This document shows, piece by piece, positions 4,631-19,131 of a DNA stretch of 22,259 nt. The translations under genes and the position numbers were made by a program. Source of the stretch: a virus; IMG/VR virus record IMGVR_UViG_3300006565_000024, positions 1 to 22,259 of that record; one strand, written 5' to 3'. The notes under the pieces were generated by a model. It ran no database searches. It was given only the letters and a program-made list of their open reading frames with translations, and was not told where the DNA came from. Numbering within the stretch: the first letter of the stretch is position 1; each line of letters begins with the position of its first letter.

Positions 4631-5311
4631 ATGAGTTTTACCTTTGTCGATGCACCTCTTAAGGAGATTGAAGTCGAACCTATAAATGAGGATGGAGTAA
4701 GGTTCTATCCTATTCCTGGTGCGGATAAATACTATCCGAGTGTTACCTCAATCACATCGTTTAAGAACGCAGCATTCTTCGCAAGTTGGAGAAAGAGAGT
4801 AGGTGAGTTAGAGGCTAATCAAATTACTGCTAGAGCAACACAAAGAGGTACTGCATTCCACAGTATCACTGAGGATTATATTAAAGATGAATTAAATATT
4901 GAAAAGTACTTGGAAAATAATCCATTATCTGTTAGAATGTTTCAGTCGGCCAAGACTACTCTTGATCGCATTGATAACATACACTGTTTGGAAACTTTCC
5001 TTTACTCACATTATCTTGGACTTGCTGGTCGTGTAGACTGCATTGCAGAGTTTGATGGTGAGTTAGCAGTAATTGATTTTAAAACCTCCACCAAAGAAAA
5101 ACAAGAGGACTGGGTTGAACATTACTTTGTTCAAGAGACTGCTTACGCAGCGATGTTCCTCGAACGTACAGGTATTGAGGTAAAGAAAATTGTCACACTC
5201 ATTGCGGTTGAAGATGGGTCTATACAAGTATTTCAGAAGTACAATCTTGATGACTATCTACACCTACTTAAATCCTATATCCAAGAATTTGTTAGGGGAA
5301 AAAATGCCTAA
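4631..5311 (+). CDS. PD-(D/E)XK exonuclease (RecB/MGME1-like)
   Basis: The 226-residue protein has the nuclease fold signature in order: a helix with RGTAFHS at residues 72-78, Glu121, Asp136 in LAGRVDCIAEF, the core DFKT at 149-152, and the QETAYA motif near 168-173. This is the arrangement of RecB-family and mitochondrial MGME1-type exonucleases, which digest single-stranded DNA ends with metal ions. In a T4-like phage the likely job is DNA repair, recombination or host DNA breakdown. It starts directly after the phoH stop and overlaps gp33 by eight bases. Confidence 0.85.
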   Translation: MSFTFVDAPLKEIEVEPINEDGVRFYPIPGADKYYPSVTSITSFKNAAFFASWRKRVGELEANQITARATQRGTAFHSITEDYIKDELNIEKYLENNPLSVRMFQSAKTTLDRIDNIHCLETFLYSHYLGLAGRVDCIAEFDGELAVIDFKTSTKEKQEDWVEHYFVQETAYAAMFLERTGIEVKKIVTLIAVEDGSIQVFQKYNLDDYLHLLKSYIQEFVRGKNA

Positions 5312-8553: not shown

Positions 8554-8595
8554 AAAAAAAACTCGGCACATTTTTTCGTGTGTAGGGTTTTTTTT
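8554..8595. terminator. Two-way terminator between convergent genes
   Basis: Eight A's at 8554-8561 pair with eight T's at 8588-8595. The stem continues with CTC against GGG (one G-T pair) and, after one mismatch, GCACA against TGTGT, around a TTTTTTCG loop. Because the stem is flanked by A's on one side and T's on the other, it can end transcription on both strands: the small plus-strand gene and the minus-strand gp53. Its right edge overlaps the gp53 stop codon. Confidence 0.8.
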
Positions 8596-9496
8596 AATAT
8601 GAAGAAGTTGCTTCCTCACCACCATCAAATGTTCTTGTTGTAGAAGATGATAAAGTTGTTGTAGTAGTGGTGGTGGATGTAGTGGTAGTAGAAGTTGTTG
8701 TCTGAGTTGTTGCTGCAGTTGTATCTTCAGCATCTTCAATTCTTACTGTTGTACTTCCAGGTCCATTATCGTACGATACTATGGTTCCTAGTTGATTTAA
8801 AGAAATAGTCTCTGAACCAGATACATAACCTCTGGTGTCTAAGAACCTTTGAGCAACATTGAGTAAAGTCTTCTTATTGTTGAAATCATCCAATTCACTA
8901 TGATACTCATATGAAAGTAATTCGTCAATTTCACTCAACATTTTGTTTACTAGTTCTACAGTCGGAATCTTTATAAATCGTTTTTTATCATTTACGAAAC
9001 TTTCGTGTTCATAGTTACTTACAGGGTATATTGACAGTTCCTTTGATTTTACTGTTCCATCAGGTAATGTTGCTCTAAAACTTTCATTTACTTCTATACC
9101 TTTGTTAAAAATTACAATATCTTCTTCTCCAGGAACTTCCCATACTATTCTTTGTGTTTCGTAGTGATGAATATCATCAAATGAACCATATTTCTCTAAA
9201 ACGTATTTTGTTAAATCTTCTTCTTTTTTAGGCCATTGTTCGTAAATATCAGTTATATTGTTTAAAATTAGAATTAACCAATCTAAACCTTCGTCACCTG
9301 TTACTCTTTTAGCAACTTCAAATGGTTTAATACCATCTGGTAGAGTTTGTACCTCAAACATGGTAATATATTTTTCTAAATCATCTCTAACAGAGATTCT
9401 TCGGAATATGTTTTTTACTAATTGGTAATTAAATGATTCGTCATCATCAATTCCTTTTCCAATGTAGCAATCTGGTAAATGTTTGAAATATGCCAT
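8594..9496 (-). CDS. 53: Baseplate wedge subunit gp53 with Thr-rich tail
   Basis: In T4, gp53 is a wedge protein that completes the wedge and connects wedges to the hub. The first ~110 residues carry the family core: an N-terminal strand (FKHLPDCYIG), then GIKPFEVAKRVTGDEGLDW and LILNNITDIYEQWP near 75-88. At 300 residues it is much longer than T4 gp53 (196). The last ~43 residues include a run in which 21 of 31 residues are Thr (259-289), likely disordered, and then FDGGEEATSSY. The gene overlaps gp48 by one base and reads away from gp4, in a two-gene minus-strand unit. I see no clear LysM domain. Confidence 0.85.
   Translation of the reverse strand: MAYFKHLPDCYIGKGIDDDESFNYQLVKNIFRRISVRDDLEKYITMFEVQTLPDGIKPFEVAKRVTGDEGLDWLILILNNITDIYEQWPKKEEDLTKYVLEKYGSFDDIHHYETQRIVWEVPGEEDIVIFNKGIEVNESFRATLPDGTVKSKELSIYPVSNYEHESFVNDKKRFIKIPTVELVNKMLSEIDELLSYEYHSELDDFNNKKTLLNVAQRFLDTRGYVSGSETISLNQLGTIVSYDNGPGSTTVRIEDAEDTTAATTQTTTSTTTTSTTTTTTTLSSSTTRTFDGGEEATSSY
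8630..8722 (-). repeat. Thr/Ser low-complexity coding repeat in gp53
   Basis: On the minus strand these bases read mostly ACN Thr codons, with Ser and a few Ala. The plus strand shows irregular GTT/AGT/GGT triplets. The tract is imperfect, as in an expandable triplet repeat that keeps frame. It encodes gp53 residues 259-289. Confidence 0.8.
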
Positions 9497-10635: not shown

Positions 10636-11055
10636 CGTTATAAGCAGGGAAAGTACTTTCCTAGTAAACCTCGGAAGTACAAAGGCAATTATCGAAATAT
10701 AACATACCGTTCAGGCTGGGAACTCAAATTTATGAGATTTTGTGATAGTAATTCCAGTATTACTGAATGGGGGAGTGAAGAAGTTAAGATTCCTTATATT
10801 TCACCTGTTGATAATAAATGGCATACTTATTACCCAGATTTTTATTTAAAAACTAACGGTAAAAAGTATATAGTTGAAGTTAAACCCTTTAAACAGACAA
10901 AAGAACCTAAGAAACAAAGAAAGGCGACTAAAGGATATATTACTGAGGTTTTGACTTGGGGAGTAAACCAAGCAAAGTGGAAATATGCTACAGAGTATTG
11001 CAAGGATCACAATATGGAATTTATGTTAATCACTGAGAAGGAGCTTAAACCGTAA
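10633..11055 (+). CDS. 4: Head completion protein gp4 (gp50), nuclease-fold
   Basis: In T4, gp4 (also called gp50) is needed to finish the DNA-filled head so that tails can join. The 140-residue sequence contains a TnsA-like nuclease pattern: Glu30 in RSGWELKF, Asp69 in YYPDFYL and Glu82-Val-Lys84 in YIVEVKP, plus the WGSEEVKIPY strand around residue 46-55. Length is close to T4 gp4 (150). The N-terminal 25 residues are Lys/Arg/Tyr-rich. It opens a plus-strand structural run and overlaps gp54 by one base. Confidence 0.88.
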   Translation: MRYKQGKYFPSKPRKYKGNYRNITYRSGWELKFMRFCDSNSSITEWGSEEVKIPYISPVDNKWHTYYPDFYLKTNGKKYIVEVKPFKQTKEPKKQRKATKGYITEVLTWGVNQAKWKYATEYCKDHNMEFMLITEKELKP

Positions 11056-11975
11056 TGTCATGGCCTACCACAAGCACTGATACATCTACTGGTGCTATTA
11101 GACGACACCAACAAAGTGGGTATAATTCAGTTCCTCAAGAGGAATCTGCACAATATCCCTCTTTACAGGAGTTTATGTCCTTTTCTTTAAAGGATAGAGA
11201 TTATACACCAAGTTTTACTAACTTATTTTCCTTTCATATTGCAACACCACCTATTTTAAAGAATAGGATTGGAATTACTGTTGGTCATGATAATACTTTG
11301 GGACAAAGAGGGTCTAATTTAGTATCTGATTTAGGAAAACTTAAAAATTCTCTTAATTATTATTGTCAAACAGTTACTGTACCTAGTAAACAGACTACAA
11401 CTGGTGGAATTGTTAATGTTGGATCTGCATACAAATATGCCACAGGTACTGCATATAGTCAGATAAGTGCAACGTTTATTATACCTAGAAATCAACATTC
11501 AAGGAATTTCTTTGAGAGATGGATGGATTTAACCTCAAGAGATTCAAATCAATATAGTGAATATTATGATTTTTATGTTTCTCCTAGAGTATCGATTTAT
11601 AAATGGGAAAGGAGACCAGGAGCAGCAATTTCAGGAAGTAATTTAGCAGAAATTGCTGATGGCACTGATTTATCCCAAATAAGCGATTTAAATGCAAAGT
11701 ATGATATAACAGGTAAATGGGAATTGTGGAATGCATTTCCATATAACCTTGGATCTGTTCAACTTAATAATGATAGAGCTAGGTTAATGACTCTAACAAT
11801 TGGATTTTATTATGAGAGATATAGATTCTTTCCTAAAGATGCTTGGTTTGTTGATGAAGTTGGTCCTATGAAAGATATTGCAATTCCTAGAGATAATCAA
11901 GTTGATGCTACTAGAGATGCTAAAAGACTACAACATTTAGTTAAAGCTACTACATCTCAAATAGTTATAGGGTAG
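11055..11975 (+). CDS. 54: Baseplate tail tube initiator gp54
   Basis: In T4, gp54 binds on gp48 and forms the platform on which the tail tube polymerises. The 306-residue length agrees with T4 gp54 (320). The N-terminus is Ser/Thr-rich and probably flexible. The core has tube-like strands (TNLFSFHIATPP, TATFII-type segments near NFFERWMDLTSRD, and WELWNAFPYNLGSVQL with LMTLTIGFYYERYRF), the arrangement seen in tail-tube-related proteins. Position after gp4 and before the hub genes supports the call. Its end is followed by a perfect late promoter motif. Confidence 0.78.
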   Translation: MSWPTTSTDTSTGAIRRHQQSGYNSVPQEESAQYPSLQEFMSFSLKDRDYTPSFTNLFSFHIATPPILKNRIGITVGHDNTLGQRGSNLVSDLGKLKNSLNYYCQTVTVPSKQTTTGGIVNVGSAYKYATGTAYSQISATFIIPRNQHSRNFFERWMDLTSRDSNQYSEYYDFYVSPRVSIYKWERRPGAAISGSNLAEIADGTDLSQISDLNAKYDITGKWELWNAFPYNLGSVQLNNDRARLMTLTIGFYYERYRFFPKDAWFVDEVGPMKDIAIPRDNQVDATRDAKRLQHLVKATTSQIVIG

Positions 11976-12008: not shown

Positions 12009-12722
12009 ATGGCATTACCTAAGTTAAATGTACCTAAGTACAAATTGAAACTACCGTCAGATGGTAGAACTGTGAATTTTAGACCATTCCTTGTTAAAGA
12101 GGAGAAATTACTTCTTTTGGCAACTGAAACAGGTAATCAGGCTGATATAGTAACTGCGATTAAAACTATTATCACGGAATGTACAGATATACATGATGTT
12201 GAAGAATTACCTACTTTTGATATCGAGTTTGTATTCCTACAAATTCGTACCAAGTCAGTTGGTGAAGCTGTTGATGTATCTGTTATCTGTCCTGATGATA
12301 ATGAAACTGAAGTGGAGGTTAAGATTCCTTTAGCCGAAATTAAAGTCATTAAAACAAAGGGACATAAGACTGATATTAAATTAAGTCCAGAGATCATTTT
12401 AACTATGGGTTATCCTAGTTTGGATAGTTTTGTTGAAATGAATTTTACTGGAGATGCTACACCTGGTGTTGATCAGATTTTTTCAATGGCTGCAGGATGT
12501 GTTAAGCAAATTTCAGATGCCGAAGAGGTATATGAAGCTTCTGATACTCCTAGAGAAGAATTGATTGAATTCTTTGATCAATTGAGTAGTAAACAATTTA
12601 TGATGATTCAAGACTTTTTTGAAACTATGCCTAAGTTATCTCATACTGTTAAGGTAACTAATCCTAAGACTAAAGTTGAGAGTGATGTTGTACTCGAAGG
12701 ATTGGCAGCTTTTTTCGGATAG
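12009..12722 (+). CDS. 26: Baseplate hub protein gp26 (zero-frame product)
   Basis: gp26 is a hub assembly protein in T4; by position and fold type it may be the T4-like counterpart of tail assembly chaperones. The 237-residue product (T4: 208) begins MALPKLNVPKYKLKLPS and has FRPFLVKEEKLLLLA near residues 25-39, VFLQIRTKSVGE near 75-86, and a helical second half with EELIEFFDQLSSKQF. It ends LEGLAAFFG. The last codons contain a canonical -1 slippery heptamer just before the stop, so a fraction of ribosomes may extend it with the gp51 frame. No ribosome binding site is strong at the ATG; the late promoter is close upstream. Confidence 0.83.
   Translation: MALPKLNVPKYKLKLPSDGRTVNFRPFLVKEEKLLLLATETGNQADIVTAIKTIITECTDIHDVEELPTFDIEFVFLQIRTKSVGEAVDVSVICPDDNETEVEVKIPLAEIKVIKTKGHKTDIKLSPEIILTMGYPSLDSFVEMNFTGDATPGVDQIFSMAAGCVKQISDAEEVYEASDTPREELIEFFDQLSSKQFMMIQDFFETMPKLSHTVKVTNPKTKVESDVVLEGLAAFFG
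12696..12716 (+). promoter_or_regulatory. Probable programmed -1 frameshift site
   Basis: The heptamer T TTT TTC (12710-12716) is in the right phase for the gp26 frame, so both tRNAs can slip back one base and stay paired. The gp26 stop TAG follows four bases later (12720). An SD-like GAAGGA lies at 12696-12701, eight bases upstream, similar in place to the stimulator in dnaX. A weak stem, AGCTCT (12721-12726) with AGAGTT, is possible downstream. P2 gene E uses the very similar T TTT TTG. The layout is visible directly; that it works is an inference. Confidence 0.72.
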
Positions 12723-12919
12723 CTCTTCTCCACCAAAGTTTGCAGAGTTATTATGAAGTCAATTTTTCGTTAATGCACCACCATAAGTGGCCAATTGAAT
12801 TTATTGATAATTTAATACCGTTTGAAAAGGAGATCTATATGAATCTCTTGGTGGCATTTTTAAAGGAAGAAGAGCGAAGAATGAAAGCTCAACAAGCAGC
12901 TGAAGCACGTGGAGGTTAA
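12716..12919 (+). CDS. 51: gp51 hub assembly segment, probably made as gp26-gp51 -1 frameshift fusion
   Basis: In T4, gp51 is a catalyst of hub assembly that is not in the virion. Here the -1 frame is open from before the slippery site to a TAA that overlaps the next ATG by one base. The 67 residues after the shift include YYEVNFSLMHHHKWPIEF and LIPFEKEIYMNLL, then a charged helix and an Ala/Glu/Gln tail. This is like the C-terminal domains of tail assembly chaperones: a helix, HW/KW, an acidic turn, a helix. Independent starts are poor: TTG at 12740 and ATG at 12773 have no ribosome binding site, and would cut the conserved-looking part. ATG at 12839 has AAGGAG but leaves only 26 residues. 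The expected fusion is 303 residues. Confidence 0.68.
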   Translation, partial: RIALLHQSLQSYYEVNFSLMHHHKWPIEFIDNLIPFEKEIYMNLLVAFLKEEERRMKAQQAAEARGG

Positions 12920-15900
12920 TGGCTAAACTCTCGACTTACAAGTTTATTAATCCTGGAAGTTCGGGGAAAACCAGTCCAGCAATTCGTGCTGTCAGAAAAG
13001 GTATATTAGCTAAGAATAGAATAGGATCTACACTATCGGGTCTTAGTCTAGTTGTTGCTGATATGCGAGATATTGCATGGGCTAATGTTAAGCTTGATGT
13101 AATAGAAGCAAAGTTATTAAGAAGGAAGGCACAAAGGCAAGCAGACCAAGATGCTGAAGATAAGACAGAAAATAATAAGATAGTTGGTAGGAAGTTAACA
13201 ACTAAGAGGAAACCGACTACCAAAGAGAAGAAGAAATTTGGTGATATCTTTGGATGGATGGGGAACGTTTGGGGTCCTATTGCCAGATTTATAGTAAGCC
13301 TTCTTAAATTTTATGTTGTAAAGGATATGCTTGCCTGGGTAGGCGATCCTGCTAATAGGGAAAAATTAAAAGAGTTTGTAAGAAAGACTGTATTTGTTAT
13401 TAAGAAGTTATACAACTTCGGTAAGTGGTTGATAATGGATAATATCCTTACACCAATGTCTGAGTTGCTTGGTGGTGAGGATGAAGATGGAAATAAGGTA
13501 GGATTTTTAGGACAAGTAAAGAATCTTGGTAAGGTTCTTTTTGGTTTTATTAGTTTACGGTGGCTTCTTAATCCCTTTGCTTTAATTGGGGATATTTTAG
13601 GTCTATTAGACTTTATAATGAACTGGGAGGTTCCTCGATTTAATAATCGTGGAAGATTACGAAAACCACCTAAAAAGCCTCGGAAACCTCGAAGATTACC
13701 TTGGTGGCAGAAGAATACTAAATCTTTAGATAGGATGAATAAGTCCTATAAGAGATTTATTCAAGGTACTTCAAATTTTGGTGATAGATTAAGATTAATC
13801 CGTAGAGGTCAGATAGGACTTCAGGGTTTATTTAATAAAGGTGGGTTTAAAGATGGTAAGTTAAAAGGTCAAAAGTGGAAACTAAAGAATCCTTTTAAGG
13901 ATCTTAGACTTGGTGAAAAATTTTCTAATGTCACAGGTGTTGTTAGGAAAAATGCTACTAAGGTTGGTAATAATGTAAATAATTGGTTTAAAGGATTAGA
14001 ACTTGGTAAAAAAGGTGGTGATGTATTAGAAGGTTTAAAGTCATTACCTGGAAAGATTGGTGGTAAGATTCGAGAGATTGATGCAGGAAGGACAAAGAAA
14101 GCACTAGACGCAACAAAAGACTTTCTTGCTAATATTGGTCCTTCTGCTAGAAAGAATTTTAAAAAGTATAGAAATTTAGCAGGTAATATAGCAGGTGGTG
14201 TAGGAAGATTTACATCAAAATGGGCAAAGAGAGCTTGGAATCTTCCTGGTAATATTGAGAAAGGAATACAGAATAGGATATTAAAACCAATATGGGAATT
14301 TGTTCAACCATATGTTGATACATTTTTGAAGAAAGGGCAAGAGATTTTAGGTGCTATTAATAAGATTCCAATTATTAATAAGATAACAAAAGCACTTCAA
14401 AAGAGAGGTATAACTTGGGGTGCTATTGGTAAGAAGGGAGCACAGTGGGGTAAAAGAGCTGGAGCAGCAATACCACTTATAGGTGGATTAGTTAACTATT
14501 ATTTTGCTGGACAATCATTCAAATATGGTGATAATATTGCTGGTGTCTTAGAAACGATTGCTGGTACTTTAGATATGGCTGGTGGTATCAGCACATTAAC
14601 TGGTGTTGGTGCATCATGGGGTGTTCCTATGATGGTTGCTGGAACTACTATTGATGCTTATCTACTTGCTCGTATTATACCTGGAGTTGGTGAAGCAATA
14701 ATGCAATGGGAACAGGATGGTGGTTTACTTAAACTTATTCCTGGTTTAGTTGAAGCAACTAATATGATTGCTAATAAATTTGGTGGTTCAAATGCTCAAG
14801 ATAAGTTGAAAGAAGCCACCAAGATAATGCAGGACAAGGATCTTAAAGAAGAGAAAACAAAAACTGTCAATATACCAATGGGACTTCCAGGCCCTACTGG
14901 TTTAACATTTGGTGGTAAAGGTGGTAGTACATATGAAGATGAAGATACTAAGACTAATAAGAAACCGTGGTGGAAATTCTGGGGTGGTAAGAAAAAGACA
15001 GAAAATGCTCGTAAAAAGAATTTCGAGAAAGATGTTTTAAAATTAGGAGAAACGAAGAAGAAAGAAAATAAGCAGGGTAAGAGAGCATGGTGGGACTTCA
15101 TGGGGGTCTTTACTGGTAAGAAAAACTCTGACTCAGAACCTGGTAAGTTACGTCAAGCATGGAATCCATTCAAAAAGATTTGGAATGTTATTAAAGCTCC
15201 TTTTGAAGCAGTATATGATGCAGTTGTTAAACCTATTGTTGATTTTGCTGGTAATGTTATTAACAAAGTGGGAGAAATTGCTAGTAATGTCCTGAATAGT
15301 GAGTTGGGTCAGATATTATCAGTTGCTTTACCTATTATATTTCCACAATATGCATGGATTGAAAAGGTTATAACAGGAATGAGAGCATTTAGTGCTCTGT
15401 CTCAAGGTAATCCAATGGCTGCTGTTATGAGTCTTTGGAATACTGGTGCTAATATATTCCCTGAGACATTTGCTAAATGGGAGACTGGTATAGGTAATTT
15501 CTTCTCTAATAATTTTGGAAAACCGTTTGGTAAGCTTTGGTCTAAAGGTCAGGAAATGTATGAAGGATTTATGGATAGTAAGATTGGTAAGATATCTTCT
15601 GCTTTAATACAGGGTAACTATGGTGCTGCTTTAGGTGCAGCAGTTGATGGTACTAAGTTTGGGGATCAATTGTCTGCATTTGGATCATCAGTTGAGAATA
15701 TGGGATTGGGTGGAATTCTTAATTCAATTCCTGGTGTTGGTTCTGCTATACAGAATATACCAGGAATTGCAAGTGTTCCAGGAATGGGTGCATTGATTAC
15801 TGGTGATTTTTCACCATCTAGTTTTATAAGTGGAATGGCAGATAAAGCTGGTATGGGTGGAGTATACAGAGCAATGATGGGTATGGCTGAGAGTGGTGAT

Positions 15901-16176
15901 TTAGGAACAGGTCTTAGAGAATTAGCACCAGAATTAGGTGTTGATAAGAGAGTTCTTGGTGTTGTTGATAATGCTAATGAAATCTTTAGAGATGGTAAGT
16001 TTGATTCTGAATATGCATTACAGACTGCTATTGAGATGGTTGCTATTCCTATTATTATGGAGAAGATTGAGGCAGTTCCAGTCCCAGTAGATACATCCTC
16101 TGGTGTTGGTGAGCAATTGTCCTCAATGAGTGGTGTCAAAGGTTTGTTAAATAGAATGGGAGGTGCTGGCTGGTAA
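12919..16176 (+). CDS. Giant tail/hub structural protein, tape-measure candidate (copy A)
   Basis: The 1085-residue protein is encoded right after gp26/gp51, where long-tailed phages put the tape measure gene, and a GGAGG site precedes its ATG. Residues 1-75 are helical with YKFINPG near the start. Residues 118-230 form a hydrophobic helical region with WVGDPANREKLKEF. Then follow very basic segments (about 235-470), a hydrophobic, Gly-rich stretch with membrane-like helices (about 515-600), two Trp/Lys-rich linkers, and a Gly/Ala/Met-rich C-terminus. Hydrophobic stretches in a long helical protein fit a tape measure that enters the host membrane. T4 gp29 (590 residues) is the functional counterpart by position, but I see no clear similarity. 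It resembles the next gene in its first 230 residues. Confidence 0.65.
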   Translation: MAKLSTYKFINPGSSGKTSPAIRAVRKGILAKNRIGSTLSGLSLVVADMRDIAWANVKLDVIEAKLLRRKAQRQADQDAEDKTENNKIVGRKLTTKRKPTTKEKKKFGDIFGWMGNVWGPIARFIVSLLKFYVVKDMLAWVGDPANREKLKEFVRKTVFVIKKLYNFGKWLIMDNILTPMSELLGGEDEDGNKVGFLGQVKNLGKVLFGFISLRWLLNPFALIGDILGLLDFIMNWEVPRFNNRGRLRKPPKKPRKPRRLPWWQKNTKSLDRMNKSYKRFIQGTSNFGDRLRLIRRGQIGLQGLFNKGGFKDGKLKGQKWKLKNPFKDLRLGEKFSNVTGVVRKNATKVGNNVNNWFKGLELGKKGGDVLEGLKSLPGKIGGKIREIDAGRTKKALDATKDFLANIGPSARKNFKKYRNLAGNIAGGVGRFTSKWAKRAWNLPGNIEKGIQNRILKPIWEFVQPYVDTFLKKGQEILGAINKIPIINKITKALQKRGITWGAIGKKGAQWGKRAGAAIPLIGGLVNYYFAGQSFKYGDNIAGVLETIAGTLDMAGGISTLTGVGASWGVPMMVAGTTIDAYLLARIIPGVGEAIMQWEQDGGLLKLIPGLVEATNMIANKFGGSNAQDKLKEATKIMQDKDLKEEKTKTVNIPMGLPGPTGLTFGGKGGSTYEDEDTKTNKKPWWKFWGGKKKTENARKKNFEKDVLKLGETKKKENKQGKRAWWDFMGVFTGKKNSDSEPGKLRQAWNPFKKIWNVIKAPFEAVYDAVVKPIVDFAGNVINKVGEIASNVLNSELGQILSVALPIIFPQYAWIEKVITGMRAFSALSQGNPMAAVMSLWNTGANIFPETFAKWETGIGNFFSNNFGKPFGKLWSKGQEMYEGFMDSKIGKISSALIQGNYGAALGAAVDGTKFGDQLSAFGSSVENMGLGGILNSIPGVGSAIQNIPGIASVPGMGALITGDFSPSSFISGMADKAGMGGVYRAMMGMAESGDLGTGLRELAPELGVDKRVLGVVDNANEIFRDGKFDSEYALQTAIEMVAIPIIMEKIEAVPVPVDTSSGVGEQLSSMSGVKGLLNRMGGAGW

Positions 16177-19131
16177 ATGGCAATACAAAAGACTAGAAAA
16201 ATTAACATGTACAAGTTTGTCGATACTGGGAAAGAATCGTCAGGCGGACCTAAGCGTGGAAAAGATAAGGAACTTGTTCGGGTTGTTAATTTAAATACCA
16301 ATTGCCTTAATAATCTTGGTGGTGTACTTAATGGTATAGTTACCACTGTTCAGGAACTTAAAAATATTGAAGTTGATCTTTTAGAGAATAGAAGAAAGAG
16401 ATTAAAGCAAATTGATACAGCACCAACACCATCAGGAACACCTAAAGCTACAAAATCATTTTTAAAGAAATTTAGTAACTTAAAAACTCCTGGATTCTTA
16501 GAAAGTATAATGAAGTTTTTGAGTAGTATATTCAAATTAATGGTAGTAATGCCAATTTTGAAGTGGTTGTCTGATCCAAAAAATAAGAAGAAGATTAAAG
16601 CAACTCTTATAAAGCTGCATACGATTTTTAAAGCAATTGCTTCGTTTATTAGTAGTCAAGTCGTTGGAATGGTTGATGACTTGTATAATCTTCTTAGAGA
16701 TGATAGTGATCCTTGGACAAAAATAAAATCGTTTACTAAAATTTGGCTTAGGTTTGCTGGAGCATTCTTAGCAATTAGGTATCTTACTCAACCTTGGAAG
16801 ATAATTAGCGATGTTAGAAAAGTTTTCATGCTTTTCGATAGAAGGGGTAAAACGGTTAAGAGACAATTATTAAGAAGGAAAGGTCGTCTTATGATGACTG
16901 GTGGTAGAGCTAGGAAATGGTTCCTTGGTGGATTTATTGGTGGTGCTGCTTTATGGGCTGCGATGGAATTTTTATTCCCTCAAAAAACTGCTGATGGTAC
17001 TATTGAAGCTCAGATGGATAAGGAAGGTAAACTTCCTGGTGATAAAGGTTATGATGAATCAACTGCTGGTTTCTTTAAAAAAGATGGTGATGGTGATGCT
17101 GAGAAAGAATTGAATAGGGCTGCTGATAGATCTAAATCGATAAGGGATTATGGTGAGGATCTTACTAATGATGGTAATTATAGTAAGATTAATGTTGGTG
17201 AATATGAGGATGGAAATGGAATACCACTAAAAGATCAAGATCAATTACCAGATAAGCAGAAAGAAAAGGCTGATCAAATGAATAAGAAGAATTGGTGGCA
17301 AAAGCTTACCGATCTTCCTGGTAATATTACCAAGTCTATGGATGATAGTAAGGATAAGAATGATAATATCCTTGCTGATATGTTGGGTATAACTGCTGCT
17401 AAGAAGAAAGCTGACGATACTATGGCAGAGATGAGTCGTAAGATGCAGTCGGATCTTGAGGGTAAAGAAGGTGATAAGGTTGGTGCTATTACATCAATAC
17501 TTAATGCTCTTGTTCCTGGACAGATGAATAAGGTGAGAGAAGTTACTAATAAAGGTGTAGATGCTCTTAATAGTGTCCAAAGTCAATTTGAAGATATGAA
17601 ACCCAAGAAAAGTTTTTGGGATGATCTTAAGACTGGTTGGGGATTGTTTGGAGGTAAGAAAAATAGGATGCTTGGTGGTGATGTAAACCCAATGGGAAGT
17701 GGTATAATATCAGGACCGAATAGTGGATTTCCTGTATCTATGCATCCTGCACTACCACCATCATTTATAGGTCATGGAACTGAATATGTTGCGACAAAAG
17801 GAGATGGAAGTGGATTTGTAATTCCATTGGATAATTTTGCTACAAGAAGAGATCCTGGTATTGTTTCTAGATCAATACACAGAGCAAGACAATTAGGATT
17901 CAATCTTTCTGAACTTGGATTGAAGAAGTTTGAACGTGGTGGTGGATTTGGACCAGCACTATATCATCCTACAAATAATAAAATAAATTCATTTAGGGGT
18001 ATTAGTGATAAATCTTTAACTACTCAGTTTGGATCTAAACTTGGTAAAGATTGGAAGAAGAAAGGAGTTAAGGGTAGTAGTGATGAGTTATTCCAAAAGT
18101 TAATTCTTGCTGAAGCTAAAGGAGAAGGAATGGCAGGAATGGCATTGGTGGCAAGAAGTGTATTGAATAGACAGAATATTATTGATGAGACAGGTAATCC
18201 AGGAACATTTATGTCTAAGAGTGGATCTCTTAAAGATATTATTAGTGCTCCTGGTCAATATAGTCCTATGACTGATGGTAGTATTGGTAGGAAATATAGT
18301 GGAGCTGAATTAGAAGTTGCTGCTAGAGCAATTGAAATTGCAAAGAGTCATAGTAGGTTGAAGGGTTTACTTGCAAATCAAATTGAGGATCCTCAGCAGA
18401 TTGCAAAACTTATGTCTGCAACAGGATTCCGTAATTATTCAAGTGCATTCTATGATAAATCACAGGATGTTAATGAAGTTAAATTTGGAAATCATACTTT
18501 CAATACTGCTGGTAACAAGGAAATGAGGTTTGGTCTTCATGGTGATAGAAAACATAATACGTTAATGGATAAGTTGTTGAATCCAGATGGGTTAAATCAA
18601 AAAGATAAGAAAGAATTGGGAAGAGCAGGTTCTGCTTATACTAAGAAGACAGGACAGACAGGTGCTCAACTGTTTGGGGGTATTTTTGGTGGTGCAAAAG
18701 ATATGATGGGTGGCGAAGGTGGAAAACCTGGCGGTATATTTAGTATGTTGACCAATGTATTTGGTGCTAGTAGTGATGGTAAAAAGCAAGGTAAAAAGGC
18801 AGGTGGAAGTAATGTTAATAAATCAAAGAGTAAAAAGAATGATGAGATGAAGATACAGAGGGCAACAGATGAAAGAAATAAAGCAAGAAAAGAGATTAAT
18901 GCTAGAACTACAGGTATAGTTGCTGCTACAACTGCAGCAGTCGATCAATCCAATCGTCAAACTAGACAATATATTAGTGCAGCAAATCAGTCAATATCAC
19001 AGATACTGACTAATTCTAAGGGTGTTGCTCCTGGACAAGCTAGCTCTGCACCAGGACCAGGTGGTGTTTTTGGTGCATTACTGAAAACTACTGCTGCCGT
19101 CCTAAATTCATTTAATAATCCTTTGAGATAA
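16177..19131 (+). CDS. Giant tail/hub protein with SleB-like cell-wall hydrolase domain (copy B)
   Basis: The 984-residue protein begins directly after copy A. Its N-terminal 220 residues match copy A in layout: YKFVDTG near residue 12, a helix with NIEVDLLENRRKR, and residues 108-218 with WLSDPKNKKKIKATL and FLAIRYLTQPWKI. The middle is acidic and Asp/Lys/Asn-rich. From about 635 to 790 it carries a SleB/CwlJ-type hydrolase pattern: LILAEAKGEG at 642-651 with Glu646 as the likely catalytic residue, then ALVARSVLNRQ at 656-666, a SLKDIISAPGQYSPM segment, and helices after it. The last 85 residues are helical, Thr/Ala/Asn-rich. It may cut cell-wall glycan or peptide during entry. The domain call is by motif only. 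Confidence 0.72.
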   Translation: MAIQKTRKINMYKFVDTGKESSGGPKRGKDKELVRVVNLNTNCLNNLGGVLNGIVTTVQELKNIEVDLLENRRKRLKQIDTAPTPSGTPKATKSFLKKFSNLKTPGFLESIMKFLSSIFKLMVVMPILKWLSDPKNKKKIKATLIKLHTIFKAIASFISSQVVGMVDDLYNLLRDDSDPWTKIKSFTKIWLRFAGAFLAIRYLTQPWKIISDVRKVFMLFDRRGKTVKRQLLRRKGRLMMTGGRARKWFLGGFIGGAALWAAMEFLFPQKTADGTIEAQMDKEGKLPGDKGYDESTAGFFKKDGDGDAEKELNRAADRSKSIRDYGEDLTNDGNYSKINVGEYEDGNGIPLKDQDQLPDKQKEKADQMNKKNWWQKLTDLPGNITKSMDDSKDKNDNILADMLGITAAKKKADDTMAEMSRKMQSDLEGKEGDKVGAITSILNALVPGQMNKVREVTNKGVDALNSVQSQFEDMKPKKSFWDDLKTGWGLFGGKKNRMLGGDVNPMGSGIISGPNSGFPVSMHPALPPSFIGHGTEYVATKGDGSGFVIPLDNFATRRDPGIVSRSIHRARQLGFNLSELGLKKFERGGGFGPALYHPTNNKINSFRGISDKSLTTQFGSKLGKDWKKKGVKGSSDELFQKLILAEAKGEGMAGMALVARSVLNRQNIIDETGNPGTFMSKSGSLKDIISAPGQYSPMTDGSIGRKYSGAELEVAARAIEIAKSHSRLKGLLANQIEDPQQIAKLMSATGFRNYSSAFYDKSQDVNEVKFGNHTFNTAGNKEMRFGLHGDRKHNTLMDKLLNPDGLNQKDKKELGRAGSAYTKKTGQTGAQLFGGIFGGAKDMMGGEGGKPGGIFSMLTNVFGASSDGKKQGKKAGGSNVNKSKSKKNDEMKIQRATDERNKARKEINARTTGIVAATTAAVDQSNRQTRQYISAANQSISQILTNSKGVAPGQASSAPGPGGVFGALLKTTAAVLNSFNNPLR

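Follow-up and report, generated by a model that had tools for sequence, protein, structure and literature searches.

In phage lambda a tail-tube gene is followed by a chaperone gene whose reading frame has a late -1 shift site, close to its end, and then by the tape-measure gene, and the chaperone products are absent from virions (PMC5009743). A 2016 review described lambda-type G/GT frameshifting as conserved in long-tailed phages "except T4", and noted low similarity among the known TAC families themselves (PMC5009743). For T4, the listed chaperones of hub assembly include gp26 and gp51, of which gp51 is essential and absent from the virion (PMC3004832). A search of the open-access literature found no earlier report of frameshifting between gp26 and gp51, nor one that identifies gp51 with a long form of gp26. 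From the analysis presented here we judge it very likely that gp26 and gp51 constitute one gene that encodes two tail assembly chaperones and that was duplicated in the lineage of T4. Frameshifted tail chaperones are already known; new here are the larger protein, with no detected sequence similarity to them, and what appears to be a frameshift that gave way to gene duplication in the lineage of T4.

The window, by which we mean the whole stretch of DNA analysed, is a 22 kb IMG/VR virus record (22,259 nucleotides) that carries T4-type tail genes (Table 1), with further tail and baseplate genes beside the tube gene, gp26 and the giant open reading frames. At the 3' end of gp26 the sequence reads GAAGGA, eight nucleotides, TTTTTTC phased as GCT TTT TTC, then GGA and then TAG. 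The in-phase T TTT TTC and the Shine-Dalgarno-like GAAGGA eight bases 5' of it are thus present as given in the preliminary description, while the stop, which had been placed four bases past the heptamer, starts after three. The -1 reading is TTT TTT CGG ATA GCT, continuing to a TAA at 12917-12919, with the product ...LAAFFRIALLHQSLQSYYEVNFSLMHHHKW..., and the predicted peptide across the fusion junction is VESDVVLEGLAAFFR, its counterpart in the short form being VESDVVLEGLAAFFG. Window gp26 matches PF12322 T4_baseplate (E 9.2e-74) and PHROG 150 (E 3.7e-87). The open -1 frame of 67 codons had been credited with a gp51-like domain, and it does match PHROG 634, 'baseplate hub assembly catalyst' (E 4.5e-29). 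The start of the first giant open reading frame shares one base with the stop codon of this extension. Among 29 window genes checked, gp26 alone combines an in-phase heptamer at most 30 nt from the stop with a long -1 extension. The gene at 4631-5311 also has an in-phase GGGAAAA/AAAAAAT near its end, 10-13 nt ahead of the stop, but its -1 frame is open for just 8 codons. Elsewhere in the tail gene region, a 300-aa protein encoded at 8594-9496 on the minus strand has a long threonine-rich tract at its C-terminus (TTQTTTSTTTTSTTTTTTT...).

Table 1. Features of the gp26-gp51 locus and neighbouring genes, in window coordinates.
Feature	Position	Strand	Evidence
Tail-tube-like gene directly 5' of gp26	11055..11975	+	PHROG 45 tail tube, E 1.5e-52
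gp26, read in frame 0 (237 aa); proposed short, lambda G-like chaperone	12009..12722	+	
GAAGGA, Shine-Dalgarno-like putative stimulator, 8 nt 5' of heptamer	12696..12701	+	Sequence
Slippery heptamer T TTT TTC, proposed -1 shift site	12710..12716	+	In-phase T6N in 253/255 loci
Extension in the -1 frame with the gp51 domain, FF + 67 codons + TAA; proposed to be read only after the shift	12710..12919	+	
0-frame stop TAG of gp26	12720..12722	+	Sequence
Giant ORF 1, 1085 aa; putatively tape-measure-like, from position	12919..16176	+	
Giant ORF 2, paralogous to giant ORF 1 at its N-terminus	16177..19131	+	BLASTP E 3e-10, ~240 aa

This locus resembles lambda gpG/gpGT in its gene order, in the proposed late -1 shift and in the tape-measure-like gene downstream. 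It differs in that gp26, at 237 aa against 140 aa for lambda G, has an extra C-terminal region, uses a T6N heptamer rather than GGGAAAG, has a Shine-Dalgarno-like putative stimulator and shows no detected sequence similarity to the lambda protein. P2 gpE/gpE+E' likewise combines a -1 shift on a T6 heptamer (T TTT TTG) with a contractile tail and a tape-measure gene downstream, but gpE has 91 aa (PF10109) and no detectable homology to gp26. The order tube - gp26 - gp51 - giant genes recurs outside the window: the tube family PHROG 45 lies upstream of gp26 in the window, S-PM2, phiN3, RHph_I1_18 and DSL-LC02, and in RHph_I1_18 a downstream gene is annotated as tape measure. The giant genes that were said to follow directly are present, and their position suggests a tape-measure role. 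The two giant open reading frames of the window are paralogous over their first ~240 residues, and the second has a weak cell-wall hydrolase domain match that falls below the curated cut-off. Two tandem tape-measure-like proteins within one phage would be unusual, if that is what they are.

AlphaFold models were good (pLDDT 87 for window gp26, 89.5 for a second model), and the first ~86 residues of window gp26 match the HK97 tail assembly chaperone 2OB9 with Z 7.5, rmsd 4.2 over 83 aligned residues and 10% identity. Next in order were 3FGX (Z 7.2) and B. subtilis YqbN, 3KLU (Z 7.0), which we take to be an XkdN-type protein, followed by matches with Z 4.8, 4.7 and then 2.9 or less. Foldseek gave 2OB9 a probability of 0.60 against at most 0.13 for the other matches listed, at an E-value of just 1.2. 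Z-scores of 7-7.5 are moderate, and values near 7 can occur by chance, yet chance seems a poor explanation for a list headed by the HK97 chaperone and an XkdN-type protein. The best solved-structure match to gp26 residues 1-84 is thus HK97 gp13/gp14, itself a -1 frameshifted chaperone, although the likeness is limited to the N-terminal domain of gp26. A similar fold search with a T4-like gp51 model returned no chaperone among the matches listed. The N-terminal domain of gp26 is also matched by PDB 5IR0, ORF19 of a Vibrio cholerae PICI-like, satellite-like element (Z 4.7). Satellites may therefore encode proteins of chaperone-like fold, which could interfere with or otherwise affect the assembly of phage tails.

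The frameshift could be real and the two proteins nonetheless be specific to hub assembly, as their names in T4 imply, rather than chaperones of the lambda G/GT type. Genetic work places T4 gp26 and gp51 among the factors of hub assembly (PMC3004832). The fold scores are moderate, and sequence comparison revealed no homology to known chaperones: gp26 had no Pfam TAC match (Phage_TAC_2, TAC_7, etc.), hhalign comparison with lambda G, P2 E, Mu gp41 and HK97 gp13 gave no signal with profiles that were shallow, related loci being near-identical or few, and a sequence search of solved structures with gp26, the gp26 profile and T4 gp51 returned nothing relevant. We nevertheless consider a purely hub-specific role unlikely, given that the tail assembly chaperone of HK97 and YqbN stand among the top structure matches, that the gene order runs from tube through gp26/51 to giant genes, and that a short and a long form would arise by a late -1 shift. 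The tape measure of T4, gp29, is moreover itself a hub protein, so hub and chaperone roles may coincide. The suggestion of the preliminary description, that gp26 and gp51 form a frameshifted chaperone pair of the lambda G/GT kind, is supported by fold and gene order, and also by the conservation of the junction and by selection on the -1 frame.

Conservation of the junction was assessed in 255 loci, obtained from annotated phages and by scanning viral contigs in four rounds that used diverse queries, and in 92 non-redundant representatives of these, dereplicated at 85% protein identity. Alignment of the junction across relatives, a check that had been proposed beforehand, revealed an in-phase T TTT TTN at 7-13 nt from the gp26 stop in 253/255 loci (90/92 non-redundant representatives). 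The six T's are constant, and the last base among the 253 loci is C in 200, A in 28, T in 24 and G in 1. Loss of the heptamer in close homologues was sought and not found, TTTTTTC lying exactly at -10 from the gp26 stop in all of the 80 close IMG/VR relatives. The heptamer is absent from the junction in 2/255 loci, both from remote phages with a TAATG start, of which L089 has TTTTTTA ~30 nt upstream. As a control, FF dipeptides elsewhere in gp26 of the 92 representatives are encoded in a T TTT TTN context in 2/116 cases. One clade has T TTT TTA, which changes the end of gp26 to FL and leaves FF in the -1 frame; here the 0-frame residue is altered and the T run retained, which indicates that conservation acts on the nucleotides and not on the residues of gp26.

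GAGG, GGAGG or AAGGA is found at -15 to -13, ~10 nt 5' of the heptamer, in most of the 92 representatives. Glu just ahead of the site is encoded by GAG in 50/77, compared with 27% elsewhere in gp26 (p 8e-12, which is overstated because related sequences were treated as independent). The effect sizes are not subtle, despite the overstated p-values. Choice of GAG at this synonymous site strengthens the Shine-Dalgarno-like element, which we regard as a putative stimulator of the shift. E. coli dnaX has a Shine-Dalgarno-like element at the same spacing, ~10 nt before a homopolymeric heptamer, but differs in having A AAA AAG and a 3' stem-loop: at gp26, RNAalifold found no conserved 3' stem-loop or pseudoknot in the 60-90 nt downstream, where single-sequence energies were just slightly low.

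The -1 frame itself carries the mark of translation-like selection. From FF onwards, -1 peptides align without gaps in 88 representatives, with the pattern FFR..L.H..L..YY..NF. The first ATG, GTG or TTG of the frame ranges from codon 4 to codon 35 across these 88, so there is no conserved start codon for gp51; in the window it is a TTG at 12740, within conserved sequence, in keeping with the earlier statement that gp51 has no good start before its conserved region. In 13/88 representatives a -1-frame stop abuts the heptamer, and the frame can there be entered at the heptamer or later only. The strongest evidence for entry into the -1 frame at the heptamer is the pN/pS of codons 4-14, which in 66 distinct sequences with their first possible start at codon 15 or later is 0.34, against 1.54 and 1.73 for the same bases in the other frames.

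These data bear directly on the proposal that gp51 is a separate small protein with its own initiation or reinitiation, at ATG, GTG or TTG or by TAATG or TGATG coupling, the T run being incidental. Database records do annotate gp51 as a separate short open reading frame, ATG at codon 6 is the first possible start in 19/88 representatives, and Vibrio K445, Vibrio 207E48 and Pseudomonas Cygsa01 have an overlapping TAATG and no heptamer. Against this, the first starts are scattered, purifying selection is seen 5' of any start, conservation of the T run far exceeds what codon choice would give, and the Shine-Dalgarno-like element, ~10 nt before the heptamer, is too distant from any start to serve it. 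Separate initiation is thus a very improbable source of gp51 in general. From their sequences, translational coupling seems to have taken over from the shift in K445, 207E48 and Cygsa01. Several remote phages carry TAATG or TGATG at the gp26/gp51 junction, among them Rhizobium RHph_I1_18, which has TAATG and a TTTTTTA ~30 nt before a later stop, and separate initiation could supplement, and in places substitute for, the frameshift. Transcriptional slippage, with the polymerase adding a T on the T6-T7 run to give the same protein outcome, can in principle occur on six or seven T's, but we give it scarcely any credence because six-T runs are short for efficient polymerase slippage, the enriched Shine-Dalgarno-like element ~10 nt 5' is of the ribosomal stimulator type, and T TTT TTN is the phase of the run in every case, a phasing that FF in both frames would favour too.

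The ribosomal -1 frameshift would have a wide distribution. Heptamer junctions occur in Kyanoviridae, in Methylophilales phage Melnitz, Sinorhizobium phiN3, Nitratidesulfovibrio phage SRB7757 and Stenotrophomonas Mendera. Within Straboviridae they occur in KVP40, phi-Grn1 and the Aeromonas phages Ah1 and Aswh1, where locus L256 is taken to be KVP40 from its similarity to phi-Grn1. In Aswh1 and Ah1 gp51 is unannotated, yet it is encoded in the -1 frame after gp26. A gp51 hidden in the -1 frame probably accounts for the absence of this protein reported for Aeh1 (PMC3037559) and Aeh1-like phages. Paired CxxC / CPxCG cysteines, resembling a zinc ribbon, are present in gp26 of T4, the KVP40-like phage and SRB7757 and are mostly replaced in cyanophage gp26, for example by CPDDNET (comparison with window 12009-12719).

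T4 belongs to the same family, but unlike the window it has 26 and 51 as two separate, divergently transcribed genes without a frameshift. The two T4 proteins both match PF12322 (gp26 E 8.8e-64, gp51 E 3.9e-52) and match each other by BLASTP (E 2e-6), and on this sequence evidence they are paralogs. T4 gp51 (249 aa) has the gp26-family match over residues 1-201 and the PHROG 634 match at its C-terminus. T4 gp26 ends ...GLKEFFELL at the place where cyanophage gp26 stops with ...GLASFFG, whereas T4 gp51 continues past that point with sequence that aligns with ...FFRIALLHTNLQSYYEGNFALMHHHKWNIEHIDNLMPWEKEIYV. A profile of -1-frame peptides alone matches the C-termini of T4-like gp51 proteins (44RR 4.6e-9, Proteus 9.1e-9, T4 1.3e-4), with the gp51 matches starting at the second or third profile position, and shuffled sequences score 23 or worse. 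In the converse comparison, the gp26 profile of frameshifting phages matches T4 gp26 at 2.5e-17 and gp51 proteins at 5.4e-8 (44RR) to 1.5e-3 (T4); the most diverged pairs are not significant alone. T4 gp26 would thus be the equivalent of the short product, and T4 gp51, with domain and in-frame extension, that of the long frameshift product. The preliminary description had held instead that T4 split one protein that is fused here, which we reject because gp51 itself contains the gp26 domain.

In a tree that is unrooted and has long branches, the duplicated copies are separated by one branch (98/92) from all single-gene rows. We favour the frameshift over the duplication as the ancestral state, from the presence of frameshifters in several families and of the KVP40 and Aeromonas phages within Straboviridae. 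Enterobacter phage EC-F2, a pseudotevenvirus, carries a long gp51-like gene followed by a short gp26-like gene in tandem and co-directionally (L268:2501-3791), an arrangement that is possibly an intermediate of the duplication.

We infer the frameshift from the conservation of the site and the selection on the frame that follows it. Most ribosomes would terminate at the gp26 stop to give the short form, while a minority, aided by the Shine-Dalgarno-like element ~10 nt 5', would move back by one base at T TTT TTN and append the gp51 domain of ~67 residues, so that gp26-51 is the long form. If lambda gpG/gpGT is a guide, the domain shared by both forms may coat the product of the adjacent tape-measure-like gene, and tube subunits may be recruited through the extension. 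Duplication of the gene would have taken place in the lineage that comprises T4, Acinetobacter, Proteus and pseudo-T-even phages, after which gene 26 would make the short form only and gene 51 the long form in a single frame.

It is probable that all T4-type phages use a lambda-style tail chaperone in two forms, and that most produce them by -1 frameshifting in gene 26. If the frameshift reading is true, gp51 is misannotated in many marine phage records, and a cyanophage gp51 that appears ~200 residues too short is explained by its domain lying in the -1 frame. The T4 exception would fall, its relatives frameshifting and T4 carrying both products as two genes, and gp26 and the essential gp51 of T4 would gain a concrete role. 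The T4 lineage would then offer a natural case of gene duplication replacing recoding.
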